Source: Anadara kagoshimensis (Eukaryota; Mollusca; Bivalvia; Arcoida; Arcidae). From it: 64,000 nt of DNA. The stretch's first letter is position 1. Each line of letters opens with the position of its first letter. The position numbers were made by a program, and so were the translations under genes. Below are positions 4,062-64,000 of the stretch, in pieces. Location of the stretch: contig CM037869.1 of the NCBI GenBank assembly GCA_021292105.1, positions 48,181,077-48,245,076 of the forward strand, written 5' to 3'. The notes beneath the pieces are model-generated. The model had not been told where the DNA came from, ran no database searches, and saw nothing but the letters and a program-made list of their open reading frames with translations.

Positions 4062-5397
4062 TATATTGATATAAAATTGTAAATAAATTCTGTCAGTCCA
4101 AACGATGTCACATCATGTATATTGATATAAAATTGTAAATAAATTCTGTCAGTCCAAACGATGTCACATCATGTATATTGATATAAAATTGTAAATAAAT
4201 TCTGTCAGTCCAAACGATGTCACATCATGTATATTGATATAAAATTGTAAATAAATTCTGTCAGTCCAAACGATGTCACATCATGTATATTGATATAAAA
4301 TTGTAAATAAATTCTGTCAGTCCAAACGATGTCACATCATGTATATTGATATAAAATTGTAAATAAATTCTGTCAGTCCAAACGATGTCACATCATGTAT
4401 ATTGATATAAAATTGTAAATAAATTCTGTCAGTCCAAACGATGTCACATCATGTATATTGATATAAAATTGTAAATAAATTCTGTCAGTCCAAACGATGT
4501 CACATCATGTATATTGATATAAAATTGTAAATAAATTCTGTCAGTCCAAACGATGTCACATCATGTATATTGATATAAAATTGTAAATAAATTCTGTCAG
4601 TCCAAACGATGTCACATCATGTATATTGATATAAAATTGTAAATAAATTCTGTCAGTCCAAACGATGTCACATCATGTATATTGATATAAAATTGTAAAT
4701 AAATTCTGTCAGTCCAAACGATGTCACATCATGTATATTGATATAAAATTGTAAATAAATTCTGTCAGTCCAAACGATGTCACATCATGTATATTGATAT
4801 AAAATTGTAAATAAATTCTGTCAGTCCAAACGATGTCACATCATGTATATTGATATAAAATTGTAAATAAATTCTGTCAGTCCAAACGATGTCACATCAT
4901 GTATATTGATATAAAATTGTAAATAAATTCTGTCAGTCCAAACGATGTCACATCATGTATATTGATATAAAATTGTAAATAAATTCTGTCAGTCCAAACG
5001 ATGTCACATCATGTATATTGATATAAAATTGTAAAAAATTCTGTCAGTCCAAACGATGTCACATCATGTATATTGATATAAAATTGTAAATAAATTCTGT
5101 CAGTCCAAACGATGTCACATCATGTATATTGATATAAAATTGTAAATAAATTCTGTCAGTCCAAACGATGTCACATCATGTATATTGATATAAAATTGTA
5201 AATAAATTCTGTCAGTCCAAACGATGTCACATCATGTATATTGATATAAAATTGTAAATAAATTCTGTCAGTCCAAACGATGTCACATCATGTATATTGA
5301 TATAAAATTGTAAATAAATTCTGTCAGTCCAAACGATGTCACATCATGTATATTGATATAAAATTGTAAATAAATTCTGTCAGTCCAAACGATGTCA
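4062..5397. repeat. 56-bp satellite, ~24 nearly identical copies
   Basis: The unit contains TGTATATTGATATAAAATTG, then TAAATAAATTCTGTCAGTCC, then AAACGATGTCACATCA. CTGTCAGTCC first occurs at 4090 and last at 5377, which is 23 x 56 minus 1. The single missing base is a T deleted near 5036. I see no other substitution, so the array expanded or was homogenised recently. No open frame. Confidence 0.97.
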
Positions 5398-10525: not shown

Positions 10526-11085
10526 TAGGGGTGTGCGATATTACCGGTATACCGGTATATTGCGGTATGAGAGGGTCGATACAATATACCGGTACGCAAA
10601 ATAAAAAACCGGTATACCACGGAATTTTTAAAAAAAAATCAGTAGATTATGCTTTACGGTCATTACTAAAAAGGCTGTAATATAATCTTTATCTCGTAAG
10701 TGTTTGTCAACTACATACAAAATAAAGCGCGTCTGAGATACAGACATGTGTATACATATAACCGATAATGGCAGACGACGAAGTAAAACTTGTCAAAAAC
10801 AAACGAGCAAAGGCAAAATTGTGGGAACATTTTAAATTTAGGCAAATAGCGGGGACTATTAATGAAAATATAGCAGTATGCACTGTCTGTAATGCAGACG
10901 TTAAATATGCTGGGGGTACAAGTAATCTTACTTCGCACATTTGCCGCCATCACCCAACTTGGATGCCGGTTCGTTTATCTTTTAAGCATTCATTAACGTT
11001 GCAATATATTGCAATATGTATTGCAATATTTTCTCAAATATTGCAATATATTGCAATATGCTTTTTCCCCCAATACCCACCCCTA
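10526..11085. mobile_element. hAT DNA transposon remnant, 560 bp
   Basis: Ends are TAGGGGTG at the left and CACCCCTA at the right. The element is bounded by a perfect 8-bp direct repeat CTATTTCT (10518-10525 and 11086-11093), the diagnostic hAT target-site length. The left subterminal region repeats ACCGGTAT motifs and the right repeats ATTGCAATAT motifs. A BED zinc finger sits inside, so this is an internally deleted derivative of an autonomous hAT that kept its first coding segment. It lies next to a half copy of MITE M1. Confidence 0.93.
10768..10968 (+). pseudogene. BED zinc finger, N-terminal piece of a hAT transposase
   Basis: Starts at ATG 10768 (MADDEVKLVKNKRAK...). A tryptophan-led LWEHFKF segment is followed by CTVCNADVKY, GGTSNLTSH and ICRHHP, giving the Cys-x2-Cys and His-x3-His zinc ligands and the aromatic start expected of BED fingers, which bind DNA in hAT transposases and ZBED proteins. 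The frame then runs into ATTGCAATAT subterminal repeats and on past the element end, so the RNase-H catalytic domain is missing. The finger itself has no stop and its ligands are intact. It is probably not expressed as a useful protein. The initial MADDE resembles the start of CASK only by chance. Confidence 0.8.
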
Positions 11086-11093
11086 CTATTTCT

Positions 11094-11185
11094 CATGATT
11101 TATGTCATTTGAACCTGTATAAAAGGGCCACCTGCCCACTTTCACTGTTTTCAATGGGTGGCCTTTATAAACAGGTTTGACTGTA
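11094..11185. mobile_element. MITE M1 half copy
   Basis: Right half only (CATTTGAACCTGTATAAAA, GGGTGGCCTTTATAAACAGG, ending TTTGACTGTA). It begins immediately after the right target duplication of the hAT element, and no left half is visible at 10517. Confidence 0.7.
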
Positions 11186-12929: not shown

Positions 12930-13075
12930 AAACGTCAACCGTCACAAATTCCAGGAATAACGTTGTTTTTATGGGAAAACGTCTTATTGTGCGATTCCAT
13001 GTCCATTGGAAACAAGTGTTTCTCGGACATGTTAGAAGATGTCACGTGGTACAGTGGCGAACCCCATTAACAAAA
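12930..13075. repeat. Dispersed repeat, copy 1
   Basis: Aligns collinearly with 26113-26245: CCAGGAATAACG/CCTGGAGTAACC, GATTCC, AAGTGTTTCTCGG/ATGTGTTCTTCGG, and GGTACAGTGGCGAACCCCAT/GGTACACTGGTGAGCCCCAT. The 106-aa frame at 12750-13070 overlaps it and is not a recognised protein. Confidence 0.65.
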
Positions 13076-13084
13076 TTGATTTGA

Positions 13085-13160
13085 TTTGATTCAAATTTGC
13101 CAGATTTAAGAAAAAGCTTCGTTAAGAAATAAATAATTGTGAAACTGGGGATAGGTAACT
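13085..13160. mobile_element. MITE M4 end fragment
   Basis: AATTGTGAAACTGGGG followed by GGTAACTTAG matches the right end of the M4 element at 15983-16242 (GATTGTGAAACCGGGG..GGGTAACTTG). Only one end is present, close to the exon 2 acceptor. Confidence 0.5.
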
Positions 13161-13223
13161 TAGTTTTACATTGATCTTGTTAAAATTTATTTTGACCATT
13201 ATTGGTGTTTTTTGTACTTTCAG

Positions 13224-13336
13224 AGGACCATACAGCATTGTAAAAAGATGTGTTCACAAAGACACAGGTCGACAGTTTGCTGTCAAAATAGTAGATGTAG
13301 CCAAATTCACATCCAGTCCTGGATTAAGTACAGAAG
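13224..13336 (+). CDS. CASK: CASK coding exon 2: glycine loop and ATP lysine
   Basis: 113 bases between TTTGTACTTTCAG and a GTAAAT donor. The first base completes a codon begun in exon 1; the exon then reads [35 protein letters not shown] and ends one base into the next codon. This is the second half of the glycine-rich loop and the beta3 strand: the lysine of FAVK corresponds to human K41, which anchors ATP. The stretch [19 protein letters not shown] is the best identifier of CASK, since other CaM kinases differ there. The array at 13337-13475 starts directly at the donor. In-frame read-through into the intron is open only to about 13476. Some uncertainty remains over the acceptor, because an AG two bases downstream is also possible. 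Confidence 0.95.
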
Positions 13337-15320: not shown

Positions 15321-15796
15321 TTTCTCACACTTAATGGCTTTAAACTTTCTAGTTTTTTCCTGACATAAACACATAAAGACAAAAAAGAAATTGATACACT
15401 AAGTTCTGTAATAGATTTTTAGTGTGATAAATGCTACGTCAAAATATCTTATTTTGTTTCTTTGTTAATTAGTTAATCATAGAAAATATACCTACATAAC
15501 ATATAAATAACACAGATGAACCTAGACTAATGTATTATATCATCCAATACACACATTTATAATAAATTGTACAGGGCTTCTCAAAACATTTTACTTGTAT
15601 AATATGTAATTTAAACCCCTGAGCCGATATCTCTGCTGGTGGCTGATTCCCCGAGGATATCAAAAACTCAGTAGGCAATAATTTCGTATTATTGTCAGAA
15701 ATATTCTATAATTGTCTAAATTTCCTGCAAGTCAAAATTTGAAATTTCTCAAAAACTAAGGTATACTCCCTCATGCAAAGTATTTCCTTAGCTTAA

Positions 15797-15957
15797 TTTG
15801 GTAAAATATATTTTGGTCCTTTGGGTAGCTTTTCAACATCTTCAAAATAATTTTGGTTTCATAATTTTGGTCCAAGCACTACTGATGAGGAATTGTATTC
15901 CGAAACGGCCGTCTAGTGCTGTAAAATTAAAACTGTTAAAATATGTAATAATAATAA
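15797..15957 (+). mobile_element. Hammerhead-bearing retroelement, copy 1
   Basis: Similar to the reverse strand of 33283-33421 from AATTTGGTAAAATATATT, through CAACATCTT, AATTTTGGTTTCA.AATTTTGGTC, CTACTGATGAGGAATTGTAT, to TAAAATTAAAACTG. It ends in a short (AAT)n tract, like a retroposon tail. The body contains the complete ribozyme annotated at 15875-15920. No coding region. Such ribozymes occur in Penelope-like elements and small retrozymes of animals; I cannot tell which this is. Confidence 0.75.
15875..15920 (+). ncRNA. Type I hammerhead ribozyme
   Basis: All invariant elements are present in order. Helix I is AGCACTA (15875-15881) pairing with TAGTGCT (15914-15920), seven base pairs. 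The core CTGATGA is at 15882-15888. Helix II is GGAAT-TGT-ATTCC (15889-15901). The second core segment GAAA is at 15902-15905. Helix III is a very short self-complementary ACGGCCGT (15905-15912). The cleavage triplet GTC ends at 15913, so self-cleavage is predicted after 15913. Short helix III, helix I open toward the flanks and a GTC site match the small type I ribozymes of metazoan retroelements, for example the schistosome satellite. It would be transcribed with the CASK intron. Confidence 0.9.
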
Positions 15958-15982: not shown

Positions 15983-16242
15983 GGTCCTGGTTTTACAATC
16001 ATTCATTAGCTAAGATTTTCCTTAACTTAGATTTAACAAATTTTTGTAATCTCTTTTTGGAGCTACTAGTGAATATTTGTGTCAAAACTAAATGCAAATG
16101 TTTTAATCTAGAAGTGATGTTAAAAATGACACCTTAAATTCCTCAATATCTTGAAAATTAACAAAATTATAAAGATTTGAAAATTTGCAAGATTGAAAGT
16201 AAGGGAAATCTTAGCTAAAGAATGATTGTGAAACCGGGGCCT
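15983..16242. mobile_element. MITE M4
   Basis: ~260 bp with long imperfect inverted ends: GGTCCTGGTTTTACAATCAT at the left, GGCCCCGGTTTCACAATCAT read inward from the right, both followed by TC.TTAGCTAAGATTT. It starts about 25 bases after the hammerhead element. Related ends occur at 13085-13160 and near 62715-62755. Confidence 0.75.
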
Positions 16243-19200: not shown

Positions 19201-19306
19201 ATTTAAAGCGGGAAGCCAGTATATGTCACATGTTAAAACATCAACACATAGTAGAACTGTTAGAGACATACAGCTCAGAAGGAATGTTATATATGGTGTT
19301 TGAATA
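19201..19306 (+). CDS. CASK: CASK coding exon 3: alpha-C helix to hinge
   Basis: 106 bases between a polypyrimidine tract ending TTCTGTTACAG and donor GTAAGT. Joined to exon 2 it reads [35 protein letters not shown] and the first two bases of a tyrosine codon (human residues 58-93). The glutamate of LKRE corresponds to human E62, which forms the salt bridge with K41, so the ATP-site pair is intact. MVFEY is the hinge. Differences from human are conservative (Q for P after LKH, E for D in SSDG, Y for F at the hinge). The exon lies 5.9 kb from exon 2 and 33.5 kb from exon 4. Confidence 0.97.
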
Positions 19307-19989: not shown

Positions 19990-21275
19990 TCGTCCGTCGT
20001 CTGTCGTCCGTCGTCGTCGTCCGTCCGTAAACTTTTCACATTTTGACTATCTCCTCTGACACCACTGGAGCAATTTTAACCAAACTTTACAGGAATGATG
20101 TATGGAAGGTCCTTTACTTAGATTGCCGAAATTTTTTTGATCCGCCAAAAAACATGGCTGCCAGCACAGAAGATAGTTTAACATTGGACCCTATGGGAAA
20201 AGTGCATTTTTAACGATTTCCTCAGAAATGACTGAAGCAAATTTAACCAAATTTTACAGGAATGGTGTAAGGAAGGTCCTTTATTTGGATTGCCAAAATT
20301 TTTCTGATCCGTCAAAAAACATGGCCGCCAGCACAGAAGATAGTTTAACATTGGACCCTATGGGAAAAGCATATATTTGCTATCTTCTTTGAAACCGCTG
20401 ATCTAATTTGAACCAAACTTTACAGGAATAATGTATGTAAGGTCATTTACTAAGATTGCCCAAATTTTTCTGATCTGCCAAAAAAAAATGGCCGCCAGGG
20501 CCAAACAAAGTTTAACATTGGGCCCTATGGGAAAACGTATATTTTGGCTATCTCCTCTGAAACGACTGAAGCGAATTCAATTAAACTTTACAGGAATGAT
20601 GTATGGAAGGTCTTTTGCAAAGATTGCCGAAATTTTTCTGATCCGCCTAAAAACATGGCTGCCAGCGGGGAACATAGTTTAACATTGGACCCTATGGGAA
20701 AAACGAATTTTTGGCTATCTCCTCAGAAATGACTGAAGCGAATTTAACCAAACTTTACAGGAATGGTGTAAGGAAGGTCCTTTATTTGGATTGCCAAAAT
20801 TTTTCTGATCCGTCCAAAAACATGGCCGCCAGCGCAGAAGATAGTTTAATATTGGACCCTATGGGAAAAGCATATATATGCTATCTCCTCTGAAGCTAGT
20901 GAAGCAAATTGAATCAAACTTTACAGGAATGATGTATAGAAGGTCCTTTACATAGATTGCCAAAATTTTTCTGATTGGCCAAAAAACATGGCTGCCAGTG
21001 CAAAAGATAGTTTAACATTGGACCCTATGGAAAAATGTGTTTTTGACTATGTCCTCAGAAATGACTGAAGCAAATTGAACCAAACTTTACAGGAATGATG
21101 TATAGAAGGTCCTTTACATAGATTGCCAAAATTTTTCTGATCTGCCATAAAACATGGCTGCCAGCGGAGAATGTTGTTTCACATTGGACCCTATTGGAAA
21201 AGCATATATACAAATTTGCTTTAAAAGCATTTTAGTCAGGTGAGCGATACAGGCTCATCCTGAGCCTCTGGTTAT
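19990..21275 (+). repeat. GTCC-led array of ~167-bp units, ~7 copies
   Basis: Starts with a GTCCGTCGTCTGTCGTCCGT tract, followed by units sharing CTATCTCCTCTGA, ACCAAACTTTACAGGAATG, GATTGCC.AAATTTTTCTGAT, AAACATGGC.GCCAG and TTAACATTGGACCCTATGGG. TTTACAGG recurs at 20086, 20252, 20419, 20587, 20753, 20919 and 21086. The end carries CAGGTGAGCGATACAGGCTC, a counterpart of the AGCTCACCTGACC start seen at 36269. Open frames of 60-83 aa are repeat shadows. I do not know the transposition mechanism. Confidence 0.85.
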
Positions 21276-22545: not shown

Positions 22546-22861
22546 AAATATTTGGACAAATTTTCCCAATTAGAATAAATTAAGTACAATATTGTATGTA
22601 TCTTTTACTATTCTACTTTGTGTGTTTTCCTCATCAGAATGTTTCTCCCAAAATTGCATGAATTGACTTATTTTCCAATTCCAGGACCCCATCCCCAATA
22701 CAGCCCTGTTAAAAGTAATTACATTCTGTTACCCTAGTACTATAATCAAGTAGTCTTACTTCTTTCTAAGTTTGTAATTATTACCAGGTATAACATTTTG
22801 AATTTTCAGTAAACCATTTGTTAAAGTACAGAGCTTTAAACTACCATACAGTAACAATGAG

Positions 22862-23111
22862 TTAAGTAATGTTGTTTAATGTCCCAGTCAAGAATATCTC
22901 ACTTATATCGAGATGTCACCAGATATAGGCGAAGGTGCAGGAATTTTGCCTGTATGTTGCACTGATGGCATTATACAACAGGAATCTTTATTGTGTCAAG
23001 CCTACCATGATATAGAACCTTGTTTATTTTGAGTTGCCATCCCATTTGGGGTTTGAACCCACTACCTCCCAGTTACAGAGCAAGCACTCTGCCAGCTGAA
23101 CTACTACAGTG
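22862..23111 (-). mobile_element. SINE-A with internal deletion
   Basis: Reverse copy from GTTTAATGTCCCAGTCAAGA to the tRNA head (AGCACTCTGCCAGCTGAACT). The segment between GTTGCCATCCCA and GGGTTTGAACCC is missing. Confidence 0.85.
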
Positions 23112-23553
23112 ATCTATTATAAAAATGATTTTAGTTGCTGTTGCATTGTTTTAGTTTGTTCTGTATTAGTCAAGAGTGGCCAGTTGGTTTTAAATATTGT
23201 CAGGTGAATACTGGTCCTGGGAATCAGGAAATGTTTGTTTTTTTTATATTCATGCCAGGGAAAAGGCAGGGAAGTTTTATTACAGGTCAGAGAATTGTCA
23301 GGGAATTTTAAAAAAAATGTTGGGGAATTTGAAAAAATTATGGAAATCAATCCTCCCAAACAAGTGAACAGAACAGGACACATTATGGACTAGAGGCTTA
23401 ATTTTTTGTTTACCTTCCACTTATTGCGATTTAAATATTTAATGTCCATTCATACTTTGCCATACTTGCCCTCTTTACTAAAAGTTTGATGGGAAAAATG
23501 TAAACAGAGTTATCTTGCTCTGCCTAATGGCATTCTTGTTTTAAAGTGTATTA

Positions 23554-33241: not shown

Positions 33242-33282
33242 ATCAAATTGAGACTGTCCTGATTTACAATAGCAGTTTATTT

Positions 33283-33421
33283 ACATATTTACCAGTTTTA
33301 ATTTTATTACATGGAATACAATTCCTCATCAGTAGTCTTAGACCAAAATTGTGAAACCAAAATTTTTTTCAAGATGTTGAAAAAACATACATAGCATCAA
33401 TATATATTTTACCAAATTTAT
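33283..33421 (-). mobile_element. Hammerhead-bearing retroelement, copy 2, ribozyme inactivated
   Basis: Reverse strand matches 15797-15957 on both sides of the ribozyme. CTACTGATGAGGAATTGTAT and TCC (core 1 and helix II) are intact, but the following GAAACGGCCGTCTAGTGCTG block is replaced by a short ATG-containing stretch, so the second core segment, helix III, the cleavage site and the 3' strand of helix I are lost. Confidence 0.75.
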
Positions 33422-42404: not shown

Positions 42405-42760
42405 ACACTTCAACACTGCGGTTGCTCAATTGGTAGAGTGCTTGCTCCGTAAGCGGGAGGTCGTGGGTTCGAACCCCGGCCGGGTCTGACCCAAGACTTG
42501 AAAGTGGGTAGTGACTTTTTTTTCGCCAAGCACTCGGCATTATGAAATGAAAGTCATGGTTCTTTTGGATGGGAACTTAAAATAAACGAGGTCCTGTGTC
42601 ATGGTGGGCTTGGCACGATAAAGAACCCTGCTGTATAATGCCATAAACGCAATGCACAGGCAAAGTTTCTGCACTTTTGCCTATAGCTGGCGACGTCTCG
42701 ATATAAGTGAAATATTCTTGACTGAGACGTTAAACACCATTTCTCAACTCAACTCAACAC
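42405..42760 (+). mobile_element. SINE-A, best-preserved copy
   Basis: tRNA head with near-perfect boxes (TTGCTCAATTGGTAGAGTGC; GGGTTCGAACCCC), an anticodon-arm-like CTTGCTCCGTAAGCGGG, GGCCGGGTCTGACCCAAGAC, body, and 3' end CGATATAAGTGAAATATTCT, TGACTGAGACGTTAAACACC. A pol III internal promoter is intact in sequence, so this copy could be transcribed. Confidence 0.92.
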
Positions 42761-42926: not shown

Positions 42927-43149
42927 TATAGTTAAACGACATTGACCTGGTCGTTTGACCTTTCATTTAAATATTTATGTTTTTATTTATGTATAAGGAA
43001 CACAGGTGTTAACTTTATCTACATAATTGGTGAACATGCATTGTTTACCTATAGATTGTGAATTCCAACAATATATGTATTGGATGGATTCTCTACTATT
43101 CATATTTCTAATGAAAGGTCAAGTGGCAGATCAATGTTGTCTGCCTATA
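42927..43149. mobile_element. MITE M2 (223 bp)
   Basis: Inverted ends TATAGTTAAACGACATTGAC and TATAGGCAGACAACATTGAT read inward, both continuing CTG...TTGACCTTTCATT. TA-like termini, no coding. Its right end is the sequence amplified at 45500-46075. Confidence 0.75.
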
Positions 43150-43166
43150 CCAATGCATTGAATAAG

Positions 43167-43336
43167 TGAGTCCAAGTCAAGAATATTTCACTTATATTGA
43201 GACATTGTCAGCTATAGACGAAGATGCAGAAATTTTGCCTGTGCATTGCGCTGATGGCATTATACAGCAGGGTTCTTTAATGTGACCTCCCACTTAGGGA
43301 ACGAGCACTCTACCAACTGAGCTACCACAGTGGTAA
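43167..43336 (-). mobile_element. SINE-A with internal deletion
   Basis: 3' end AAGTCAAGAATATTTCACTT through GGCATTATACAGCAGGGTTC, then directly to the tRNA head (GACCTCCCACTTAGGGAACG, ACTCTACCAACTGAGCTACC). About 170 bases of body are missing. Confidence 0.85.
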
Positions 43337-43942: not shown

Positions 43943-44693
43943 ATCTTCTGTTACACAGGACCCCTTTATCTTAAGTCAGTGTGTGCCAAACTTTCAAAAT
44001 GATTAATGGACATTCGGTCTGGTAAACCTAGAAACTTTACTAGACCGTAAAGTTTTTTACTGGACCAAAAATTCTTCAATAAAAAGAAAACAATTATTCG
44101 GTTTTGTAAATATTTACTTATTTTCTCCTTTAAAACGGAAAGCTACGGGAGGCACAGCAGTGTGTGCATTTCATTACACATTTCTCCTCGTCAAATTGCA
44201 ACCATGGTCGCCCCTCCATCCAATGCTGCTTAAATTTTCTTTCACGTTTTCTTCATAATTTGCACCTCCTGTTGCTTTCCGTTTTATTGGTTTTATTGGT
44301 TTCCCTGGAATAGCTCCTGGAACGTACATTTTTGTAATAACGGAAGTCGGATGGCAATAATAAAATTCGAGTTGAATCGGAACTATAAATCCGAATTTTT
44401 GGCACTCTCTATTTTCCGAACTGGTTACCGGACATACGGTCCGGAAAAATCTGATTTTTTATCGGACCAGTGGTAATTTTATCGGACTTGTCCGACGGTC
44501 CGACGAAGTTTGGCACACACTGTTAAGTTCCCATTCAGGAAAAAAATTGTGACTTTCATTTCGTAATGTTGAGTGCTTGGCGAAAGAACAGTCACTACCC
44601 ACTTTCAAGTCTTGGGTCAGACCCGGTTAGGGTTCAATCCCACTACCTCCCACTTATGGAACAAGCACTCGAGCAACTGAGCTACCCCACTGG
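43943..44693 (-). mobile_element. SINE-A interrupted by a DNA transposon
   Basis: Left piece 43943-43976 (TTACACAGGACCCCTTTATC TTAAGT) and right piece 44523-44693 (TTAAGTTCCCATTCAGG to the tRNA head CACTCGAGCAACTGAGCTAC). The junction rebuilds the SINE-A phrase GTTTATTTTAAGTTCCCATC. Confidence 0.8.
43977..44522. mobile_element. Non-autonomous DNA transposon, CAGTGTGTGCCAAACTT ends
   Basis: 546 bp. Both ends read CAGTGTGTGCCAAACTT inward (17 bp perfect). It is bounded by TTAAGT at 43971-43976 and 44523-44528. Subterminal regions repeat GGTCCG/CGGAC motifs (ACGGTCCGG, TCGGACCAG, TCGGACTTG, ACGGTCCG). CAGTG ends resemble hAT, but the visible target duplication is 6 bp, not 8. No transposase. 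Confidence 0.85.
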
Positions 44694-45359
44694 TCACAAT
44701 GTATTGGGTAGATAATCATATATGAATATTCATAATAAAAGGTCAAGCAGACAGGTCAATGTTGTCTGTCCTATACTGTTATACTGTTAGTGTTTGATAT
44801 TCTTGACATTGCACTGAGTGGCACAGCTTAGGACATAGGACCGTGTGGCAGGTGAAGCTAGCTAGACCCTTTTGGAACCTCTATTTATTTAAGAACCAAT
44901 TCCTTGTAGAAAGAATTAAACATGGGGTGCTAGCTAATCACTGGTCAGTTTATAATGCACACACTGTCAGTCTACTCTTGCAAAAAGTACAGTACAGACC
45001 GGTCAATAGTTAAACACTGAAAAGGAGTCAGAGCTTGACTGCCGAGTGGCCAAGTCACTCAAAAAACTGCTGAGATATAGCTAACATGAGATGGTTGCTA
45101 ATTCTGCACTGATGTTAGCTTAATGTTAAACTTTCAACAGGCCTGTACTTTAAGTTTGAGATTAATATAATGTCTTAAGATTTGTGAAATTCTAAGTAGA
45201 CCCTGAATGTAAAAAATGCAAAAGTATTTGCAAGGAGTTTGTCAGCTATTTAAAATAATCTCAATATTTTCTTTTACTCAACCTTCAAACTTGGATTGTT
45301 CAATTATCAACTAGACTTTCAGTACCAACATTTATTATCTCTGACGGAAAAAGGAGCTT

Positions 45360-58704: not shown

Positions 58705-59885
58705 CTGTCATGGCTTTTGAAGTCCAGGGTTGTGGGTTCGAACCTCTCGTGACTTGGACATTTTTGTCCCCCGCCACAACGCGGAGGGGGGACATAGAAA
58801 TGCCAGGCGTCCATCCGTGTGTACTTGTGTCCGTGCGTCCTTTTTTCCGTTCGTCACACATTTTTTTGTAAGCACTCTCATGCCTACAAATTTTGACCGA
58901 TTTTCATTAAATTTATACCAAATGTTTATAATACTAATACCTTTATCAAGTTCGAAAATCAGCATTGGTCGATACTTTTTGTTGGAGTTATGGGACTTTG
59001 ACCACAATAATGACTCTGTTTTATCCAAAACTTGACCTTGTAAGCGCTCTCATGCCTACAAATTTTGACGGATTTTCATTAAATTTATACCAAATGTTTA
59101 TACTACTAATACCTTGGTCAAGTTCGAAAATCAGCATTGGCCGATACTTTTTGTTGGAGTAATGGGACTTTGACCACAATAATGACTCTGTTTTATCCAA
59201 AACTTGACCTTGTAAGCGCTCTCATGCCTACAAATTTTGACAGATTTACATGAAATTTATACCAAATGTTTATACCACTAATACCTTGGTCAAGTTCGTA
59301 AATCAGCCTTGGTCGATACTTTTTGTTGGAGTTATGGGACTTTGACCACAATAATGACTCCATTTTATCCAAATATTGACCTTGTAAGTGCTCTTATGCC
59401 TACAAATTTTGACAGATTTTCATGAAATTTATACCAAATGTTTATACCACTATTATCTTGGTCAATTTCGAAAATCAGCCTTGGTCAATACTTTTTGTTG
59501 GAGTTATGGGACTTTGACCACAATAATGACTCCATTTTATCCAAATATTGACCTTGTAAGTGCTCTTATGCCTACAAATTTTGACAGATTTTCATGAAAT
59601 TTATACCAAATGTTTATACCACTAATACCTTGGTCAAGTTCGTAAATCAGCCTTGGTCGATACTTTTTGTTGGAGTTATGGGACTTTGACCACAATAATG
59701 ACTCCATTTTATCCAAATATTGACCTTGTAAGTGCTCTTATGCCTACAAATTTTGACAGATTTTCATGAAATTTATACCAAATGTTTATACCACTATTAT
59801 CTTGGTCAATTTCGAAAATCAGCCTTGGTCAATACTTTTTGTAGGAGTTATGGGACTTTGACCACAATAATGACTCCATGGTGGG
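58705..59885 (+). repeat. tRNA-head fragment then GTCC-led array of ~173-bp units, ~6 copies
   Basis: 58715-58745 looks like a tRNA-derived head (GTTGTGGGTTCGAACCTC). An imperfect hairpin (TGTCCCCCGC with GCGGAGGGGGGACA, 58767-58795) precedes GTCCATCCGTGTGTACTTGT and GTCCGTGCGTCC. Units share CTCTCATGCCTACAAATTTT, GATTTTCATTAAATTTATAC, CCAAATGTTTATA, TCAAGTTCGAAAATCAGC, GGAGTTATGGGACTTTGACC; CTC.(C/T)ATGCC recurs near 58873, 59049, 59220, 59391 and so on. Frames of 60-106 aa are shadows. Confidence 0.85.
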
Positions 59886-62515: not shown

Positions 62516-64000
62516 GTATTACAAACAATATTTAAAACTGATGCTATTAATGGCTTTATTGCTTTGATTGACCAATTGTTTTACCCTTTTAAACCCGTGG
62601 GGAAAAATCAGAAAACACACTAAGTTTATTCTTAGGATTAGTAAAGATTTTCAAAAAATAATAAAGGGACAGAACAAAATTGATGCAGTGAATAATCCCA
62701 GGCACCATGAAGTTTCACGATCATTTCTTTGCTAAGATTTTCCTTGTCTTACATTTAGTAAACTTTTATAATTGTTTTGGAACAACATATAAACAATTCT
62801 GAAAAAAAACAATGCAAATGCTCAAAATTGTAGCTAGAAATGTTTTTCAAAGTCCCATATATCTGAAAAATAGCAAAATTATAACAGTTCGAAATTCTAG
62901 TAAATTATATATTCAAATTTCTAAAAGTTGTGAACATATAGGACTTCCCTTTTCCACATATTTTTTCTAAAATTTGCTTAAAAAAGTTACTTTTGAAAGA
63001 ATTTTTCAGAAAAAGCCAATGGTGGTATTTTAGTACCCAGGAATGGAAACACAGATTTATGCCTCTAAACAAAGTTTGAAATGAAATGTTTTCAGCCAGT
63101 TGTTTCTTGAGCTATGATCATTATCATATTTTGTATGTCCAGTGATGGATACAAACAAATAGTTGTTGAACAGGAGGAATAGTTTTCTGAATTTTCTGAG
63201 GAAATTGATGTAGTCCTCTTTGTTAATATTTCAAAAACTGTAGAATTGGATAAAAAAAACAATTTCTTAATTTTAGTAAAAAAAATTATGTTTTTATTGA
63301 AAATAGGAAATTAAAAGGAAATTAGTTGCATCAATTTTGTCATGTTACTGCCAATACATTTATCCTAGCGTTTATTCACTCTGCATCATTCTGGATTGTT
63401 CCTAATGCATTAAAATTTGCATGCAACATATTAAGACCTTTCCATGCACCCCTACAAATTTGTGGTATGATCCATAAATCAAATATCTGGATCATACCAT
63501 TTCAAGTTTAGAGGTGAAAAGGATGATGGACATACCTTCCATCCCTACAAATCTGTAGTATGATCCAGAAAAGACCTGAATCATTCCATTTCAAATATAG
63601 AAATGAAAATTATTATTTCTGCTTTGGATGTTGTCTTTTTGTGCATCTTGTAATTATTATTATTATTTTTTTGCTACTGAGAGCAATTTCCTGCATGGCA
63701 ATATATTACTTTAAACAGAAAGAAAAGTGGAATATACCCAGATATATATGTTATTATAGTTACTCTGTACAACATTATACCTACTATATGGCCATCCTAT
63801 GGGAGATGGAGTGGGTGGGTGGCTGCATGGGTTGGAAGGGGTTTGGTCCTTTAGATCAAGATTTGTCTTGAAATAAGTGCAGTTATTTGATTTTTAGACA
63901 CAAGAGCAAATAACTGAGACTAGACTCTATTTGAAATGACATCACAGAATGTTTTATGTTACCCTGGCAACCTTCATGTAAATTCTCTTCTGTCAAATTG
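62516..64000. other. Start of CASK intron 5
   Basis: No further CASK exon: the continuation of the kinase domain (GTPHFMAPE region) is not found. 62694-62780 resembles an M4 arm (GTTTCACGATCATTTCTTTG, CTAAGATTTTCCTT). 63450-63612 is an imperfect ~93-bp tandem duplication (CCCTACAAAT.TGT.GTATGA, TCATACCATTTCAA/TCATTCCATTTCAA). The 61- and 103-aa frames have no recognisable domain. Confidence 0.7.

Follow-up and report, generated by a model that had tools for sequence, protein, structure and literature searches.

The question raised by the window (the whole 64,000-nt stretch of Anadara kagoshimensis DNA analyzed here) is why an intron of a CASK gene contains the sequence of a self-cleaving ribozyme. 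An earlier note, made from the letters alone, had described a complete type I hammerhead at this place. We asked whether the motif is real, what carries it, how the carrier came to be inserted and whether CASK is affected.

The hammerhead motif and its host intron

The motif consists of the following parts:

15875-15920, + strand: type I hammerhead ribozyme, from the letters, Rfam alignment and descriptor scan; cleavage predicted after C15913
15875-15881, + strand: 5′ strand of helix I, AGCACTA (letters)
15882-15888, + strand: CTGATGA (letters)
15889-15901, + strand: helix II hairpin GGAAT-TGT-ATTCC, 5 bp with a UGU loop (letters)
15902-15904, + strand: GAA (letters)
15905-15912, + strand: helix III palindrome ACGGCCGT (RNA: ACGGCCGU), predicted to have 2 bp in the monomer and 8 bp in the dimer
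15913, + strand: C17 (letters)
15914-15920, + strand: 3′ strand of helix I, TAGTGCT, completing a 7-bp helix I (letters)

The invariant core and three helices are present, with helix I open. The letters thus confirm that the hammerhead is complete and correctly ordered where the earlier note had placed it, the cut after 15913 being a prediction. Alignment of a 101-base query to the Rfam type I model RF00163 (Hammerhead_1) gave 28.1 bits (E=1.5e-5), with all 45 model positions aligned and zero non-standard pairs marked. This score is lower than the RF00163 gathering score of 34; a covariance score under threshold is literally what the earlier note had named as an outcome speaking against its claim. 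The motif was not listed by Rfam when 801 bases or the whole window were scanned, where filters are stricter; by arithmetic, 28.1 bits over the whole window would mean an E of about 0.01. The RF00163 consensus shares a palindromic helix III (ACGcgCGU) with our motif, which differs from RF00163 type I hammerheads in its score under the gathering score and in its unit. Newt satellite DNA is among the members of that family.

The window was also scanned with a descriptor requiring, in order, CTGANGA, helix II of at least 4 bp with a loop of 3-12, GAA, helix III of at least 2 bp beginning with A-U and with a loop of 3-12, H17, and helix I of at least 5 bp. Positions 15875-15920 were the sole locus found, and no match was obtained in 400 dinucleotide shuffles (800 strand-scans), in agreement with the earlier claim that a chance match is unlikely. 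A looser letter pattern without helices matched 11 times in the window versus 4.6 expected, so the letters alone are insufficient evidence for a hammerhead. The search was extended to the genome (1,115,223,567 bases, or 1.115 Gb, in 36 contigs). The exact 32-nt core was found 3,061 times (1,592 on the + strand and 1,469 on the − strand), and a relaxed pattern with part of the core fixed matched 6,643 times (3,306 + and 3,337 −); the reversed-pattern control gave 0 in both cases. Such recurrence across the genome marks the motif as a genuine repeat despite its sub-threshold Rfam score. The assignment to type I holds on the core letters, the RF00163 alignment and the thousands of genomic cores. 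That a hammerhead-like sequence arose here by chance, as a score under the gathering score could be taken to mean, has practically no probability in view of the empty shuffles and the thousands of identical cores.

The exons surrounding the motif are:

~13222-13336 (boundaries approximate), + strand: CASK exon upstream of the insertion (GPYSIVKRC...SPGLSTE), from characteristic motifs
19201-19306, + strand: CASK exon downstream of the insertion (...MVFE), with AG before and GT after; its best PDB matches are CASK, E=3.5e-16
~52.8 kb and ~62.4 kb, + strand: later CASK exons, from characteristic motifs; PDB E=2e-28 for the 62.4-kb exon

All four + strand exons are assigned to CASK by motifs taken to be diagnostic. 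For the 62.4-kb and 19.2-kb exons CASK was the best match in PDB, with CaM kinase II behind. The intron that separates the exons at 13222-13336 and 19201-19306 carries the motif on its sense strand; the placement of the motif on the sense strand of CASK is thus borne out by the exon motifs and the PDB matches of two exons. The label "intron 2" presumes vertebrate CASK numbering; the first CASK exon was not found within the window.

A repeat family with a 339-bp unit

The element carrying the motif had been described as about 160 bp long. BLAST against the 339-bp unit of a genomic array (locus L124) revealed two copies in the window:

15593-15949, + strand: full-length retrozyme copy, 357 bp or 1.05 units, 94.1% identity to the L124 array unit
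33276-33418, − strand: partial, diverged second copy, 0.47 unit, 76%, in which the ribozyme core has lost its 3′ half

The actual carrier is, therefore, a 357-bp insertion of a 339-bp unit, and a size of ~160 bp is ruled out by the unit match across 15593-15949. The smaller figure probably came from comparison with the partial copy at 33276-33418 (−), which, lacking the 3′ half of the core, is not a ribozyme. The CASK copy runs from unit position 20 round to position 37, past the cut site. Its ends overlap by ~18 bp (15593-15610 and 15932-15949, 83% alike, at a spacing of 339), and its best identity to other fetched copies is 95.8%. Just downstream of the retrozyme copy lies a foldback element (15983-16241) with 62-bp inverted ends that are 81% complementary; pieces related to it are found at 62712-62884 and 13066-13161.

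Elsewhere in the genome the 339-bp unit occurs in arrays. Core-to-core spans at unit spacing numbered 631 (341 + 290) genome-wide, with 0 in the reversed control. The family thus shows two features of metazoan non-LTR retrozymes: its type I hammerheads recur in tandem units within the 150-450 bp range, and its GC content is under 50% (33.9% in one L124 unit). In coral and mussel such tandem type I hammerhead units are described as metazoan non-LTR retrozymes (PMC7229834). Circular retrozyme RNA and repeats of 350-390 bp have been described for the mussel Mytilus galloprovincialis (Cervera and de la Pena 2020, PMC7229834). As described, mussel retrozymes share with our family a type I hammerhead, a unit of some hundred bp repeated in tandem (350-390 versus 339 here), GC below 50% and thousands of copies.

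The suggestion in the earlier note that tandem copies would point to a retrozyme is well served by the 3,061 exact cores and 631 unit-spaced spans. The insertion in CASK is of a known kind, a single-unit retrozyme insertion. We think it probable that the feature arose by insertion of a non-autonomous 339-bp element, a metazoan non-LTR retrozyme; this grading is a joint one for the whole explanation, i.e. retrozyme, double hammerhead, circles and Penelope-like helper together.

Relatives were also sought in other collections. Two specific patterns had 0 matches in IMG/VR. A loose core pattern matched in at least 120 IMG/VR stretches, giving 122 matches, 56 of them with helix II of at least 4 bp and only 2 with helix I of at least 5 bp; the IMG/VR matches listed are, therefore, mostly not type I. 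Among prokaryote contigs 3 stretches matched, none with the exact core. The window contains two further tandem arrays, with 167-bp and 172-bp units, at 20041-21207 and 58866-59879. They were considered as retrozymes and rejected, hammerhead patterns matching nothing in them.

Insertion ends and the template

To define the insertion ends, we used 84 exact-core loci on contig C1, taken from the first 100 places listed after omission of the overlapping loci L125, L126, L127 and L129, and the two window copies. Removal of 7 duplicates left 79 copies. With selection by the exact core, copies stopping at the cut site are detectable, and 33276-33418 is the one copy without a ribozyme in the sample.

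A common 3′ end was revealed: 64 of the 79 non-redundant copies end at unit positions 36-43, about 38 nt past the cut. The remaining 15 comprise 8 that end at 27-33 or 45, 4 arrays in which the alignment ran to the limit of the reference, and three exceptional copies, L128 (position 8), L161 (13) and L142 (325, with a partial further unit). The locus of L128 ends 17 nt after the core, so its flank is truncated there. When only non-array copies are considered, 63 of 74 end at 36-43 and 71 of 74 at 27-45, while the number of these 74 copies with a 3′ end at the cleavage site is 0. The 5′ ends, by contrast with this fixed end, are scattered from unit position 1 to 319, and one non-array copy (L167) starts exactly at the cut site. 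Lengths of non-array copies range from 0.26 to 1.57 units, with 13 of 74 exceeding one unit. Genome-wide, the 8 nt of continuation inside the unit are present in 1,461 of 2,344 exact copies (62%), and the 8 nt of continuation across the unit end in 379 of these 1,461 (26%).

The consensus is lost after ...TATGTAATT in 50 of 63 simple copies (those in which TATGTAA was found), and the shared 3′ end reads ...GTAATT. The flanks are A+T-rich, yet the window itself has only 33.5% GC, and flank composition thus shows no target preference. In metazoan non-LTR retrozymes, target-site duplications, when present, exceed 4 bp; here, at least 8 shared bases were seen in 11 of 63 copies compared to 7.2% of 1,260 mismatched control pairs. 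Target-site duplications are thus mostly undetectable, L130 being the sole long and clear case.

All sampled copies whose core is intact extend 8 nt or more past the cut site, which argues for a circle or uncut RNA as template and against a linear cut unit. Copies longer than one turn fit a circular or multimeric template. The position of the common end suggests that reverse transcription began at one internal site of the RNA. An insertion end that is internal, downstream of the hammerhead and on a template uncut there, as in 64 of 79 copies, is what mobilization by Penelope-like elements calls for.

A fixed 3′ end combined with 5′ truncation is also the classic signature of LINE-driven insertion, and the family could be viewed as a SINE-like element moved by a LINE, with a linear transcript that has its own 3′ end and a ribozyme that is incidental. 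We regard this as unlikely, since the unit-spaced arrays, and likewise the 13 non-array copies of more than one unit, require a template that is circular or multimeric. In addition, the 3′ junctions inspected show no poly(A) and have no simple-repeat tail in common, and the scarcity of detected target-site duplications is likewise at odds with a LINE.

For a retrozyme, circles have been proposed as templates and Penelope-like elements as helpers (PMC7229834, PMC7761336). The available text of PMC7229834 describes, for mussel retrozymes, nothing that corresponds to the defined 3′ end ~38 nt past the cut and the 5′ truncation seen here. This anatomy of dispersed copies may be new, being absent from the open-licence literature searched. 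The insertion ends bear on both template and helper in the return of metazoan retrozyme RNA to DNA, and supply a defined terminal sequence that can be tested against enzymes of this genome.

A closely related case is a Penelope-like element of Anolis, for which internal initiation of reverse transcription matching genomic ends has been described (Frangieh 2024, PMC11167929). Ribozyme mutants of the Anolis element still serve as template, and its enzyme cuts AT-rich sites with an ATT motif (PMC11167929). The insertion end of our family resembles that of Penelope-like elements in being internal and downstream of the cut, on a template uncut at that point. In Anolis, the start of reverse transcription is farther from the cut (111-118 into the ORF, with the cut at 26; PMC11167929).

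Predicted folding, candidate helper and the fate of the CASK copy

Folding predictions were made for one and two copies of the motif. In the monomer, the hammerhead fold has −8.9 kcal/mol versus −13.4 for the misfolded minimum-free-energy (MFE) structure. For two copies the pairing in the MFE structure, at −36.7, is precisely that of a double hammerhead in which helix III has 8 bp, an assignment that is read from the MFE pair string; the energy gained by dimerization is unexceptional, 104 of 500 shuffles being as good. One real pair of tandem units is predicted to fold as a double hammerhead in cis, while in a single 339-nt circle the core is predicted to be misfolded. Among the 100 copies listed, helix III is GGCC in 62 and still self-pairing in 76; its variants look mostly like neutral decay and are uninformative. 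Action as dimers has been described for type I hammerheads with a weak helix III, including newt and Penelope motifs (PMC6155905, PMC7761336), and newt ribozymes cut best as dimers (PMC6155905). On the other hand, self-cleavage at ~0.1 per minute has been described for a cloned repeat of a mussel retrozyme (PMC7229834), so single copies may work, counter to a strict dimer rule.

Taken together, a retrozyme cycle can be proposed, in which arrays would be transcribed into multimers and neighboring ribozymes would pair through the palindromic helix III to form a double hammerhead. This would cut out unit-length RNA, which would then be ligated into circles. On a template that bridges the cut junction, either circular or uncut, a Penelope-like reverse transcriptase would nick DNA and start to copy at the fixed internal site of the RNA, usually stopping early. 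The CASK copy would be one such product, with a full turn and 18 nt more.

The architecture of Penelope elements is a reverse transcriptase followed by GIY-YIG (PMC11167929), and some Penelope-like elements carry minimal hammerheads (Cervera and de la Pena 2014 and Lunse 2017, cited in PMC7761336). Our family has in common with them a short helix III, an open helix I and a tandem arrangement. Its unit encodes neither domain, 339 bp being too short for a reverse transcriptase plus endonuclease, and it is not itself a Penelope-like element. When open reading frames of the genome were searched, at least 50 GIY-YIG matches were obtained from 150 scored of 248 candidates, one of them UvrC. This one, L212 on contig C22, is the best GIY-YIG match and not a transposon (UvrC RNase H domain, E=3.9e-31). 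UvrC is normally a bacterial repair protein, and contig C22 may come from a symbiont or contaminant. Among eight other ORF pieces, RVT_1 and GIY-YIG occur together in three (L219, L224 and L226); GIY-YIG alone was found in 3, RVT_1 alone in 1 and neither in 1. The link to a Penelope reverse transcriptase raised in the earlier note is supported by the presence of ORFs with both domains in the genome. The helper would be a Penelope-like reverse transcriptase, with any individual helper element only putative. Several GIY-YIG matches form close pairs on opposite strands (C15:54986423/54989902, C15:56872115/56875592, C15:59520667/59523173, C3:1658447/1660515, C3:2308968/2311040 and C6:15379015/15384018), which suggests inverted double copies of Penelope-like elements.

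Hammerhead-like motifs were identified near several Penelope-like ORFs. Their helix III sequences are AGCGCT (L214, L220 and L226), AGTACT (L224) and ACATGT (L217 and L219), all of them palindromes. These motifs were missed by our strict descriptor, and an Rfam scan of L224-L226 listed no hammerhead. Folded as pairs, the motifs of L214, L224 and L226 were double-hammerhead-like and those of L219 and L220 were not. Such motifs near GIY-YIG ORFs, together with retrozyme copies near ORFs of this kind in L216 and L226 and the minimal type I hammerheads of Penelope-like elements (PMC7761336), would agree with the unit being a pseudo-LTR, solo or decayed, that belongs to an autonomous Penelope-like element and is no independent retrozyme. 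We find this quite improbable. The unit was compared by blastn with 15 GIY-YIG loci, which are 3 to 7 kb long, overlap in part and may stop short of the element ends; strong matches were confined to L216 and L226, where they are separate copies. The 339-bp spacing between successive units, moreover, leaves no room for an ORF.

We return to the retrozyme insertion and its host gene. Being single, the CASK copy should cut itself poorly and would probably have little effect on CASK. The contrary reading is that of a functional intronic ribozyme, whose cleavage of CASK pre-mRNA in cis would control splicing or the isoforms made, in the manner of the conserved amniote intronic hammerheads. The core is complete, on the sense strand and within an intron, and conserved intronic hammerheads are known in RECK and other genes (PMC6155905). 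The amniote hammerheads of RECK and CTCL (PMC6155905) are likewise type I and intronic; they are isolated and conserved, whereas the CASK copy belongs to an abundant repeat family. A regulatory function is very unlikely, given that the copy is one among thousands and that its monomer is predicted to misfold. No tested feature sets it apart from the thousands of others. Cleavage of CASK pre-mRNA by the motif is possible but unsupported; the copy probably cuts poorly, as judged from predicted folding, and probably has no role specific to CASK. For the CASK gene itself the insertion is ordinary.

Finally, lone intronic copies might act as conditional cut sites by pairing in trans with free retrozyme RNA as a double hammerhead. 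The palindromic helix III would serve as the contact, which the dimer prediction permits, and many copies are presumed to lie in introns. We consider this highly improbable; if true, expression of the retrozyme would cut host pre-mRNAs such as that of CASK.

Several other repeats are present in the window. A near-perfect array of ~24 copies of a 56-bp unit occupies 4062-5397. SINE-like repeats are dispersed over the window at 2212-2551, 22858-23113, 42414-42751, 43147-43334 and 44615-44694. They have a tRNA-like part, share their middle portion near AAGTCAAGAATATTTCACTTATA and resemble mollusc SINEs. The 116-aa ORF at 10762-11112 on the + strand, probably a transposon remnant, encodes a BED zinc finger (zf-BED in Pfam, E=9.5e-10).
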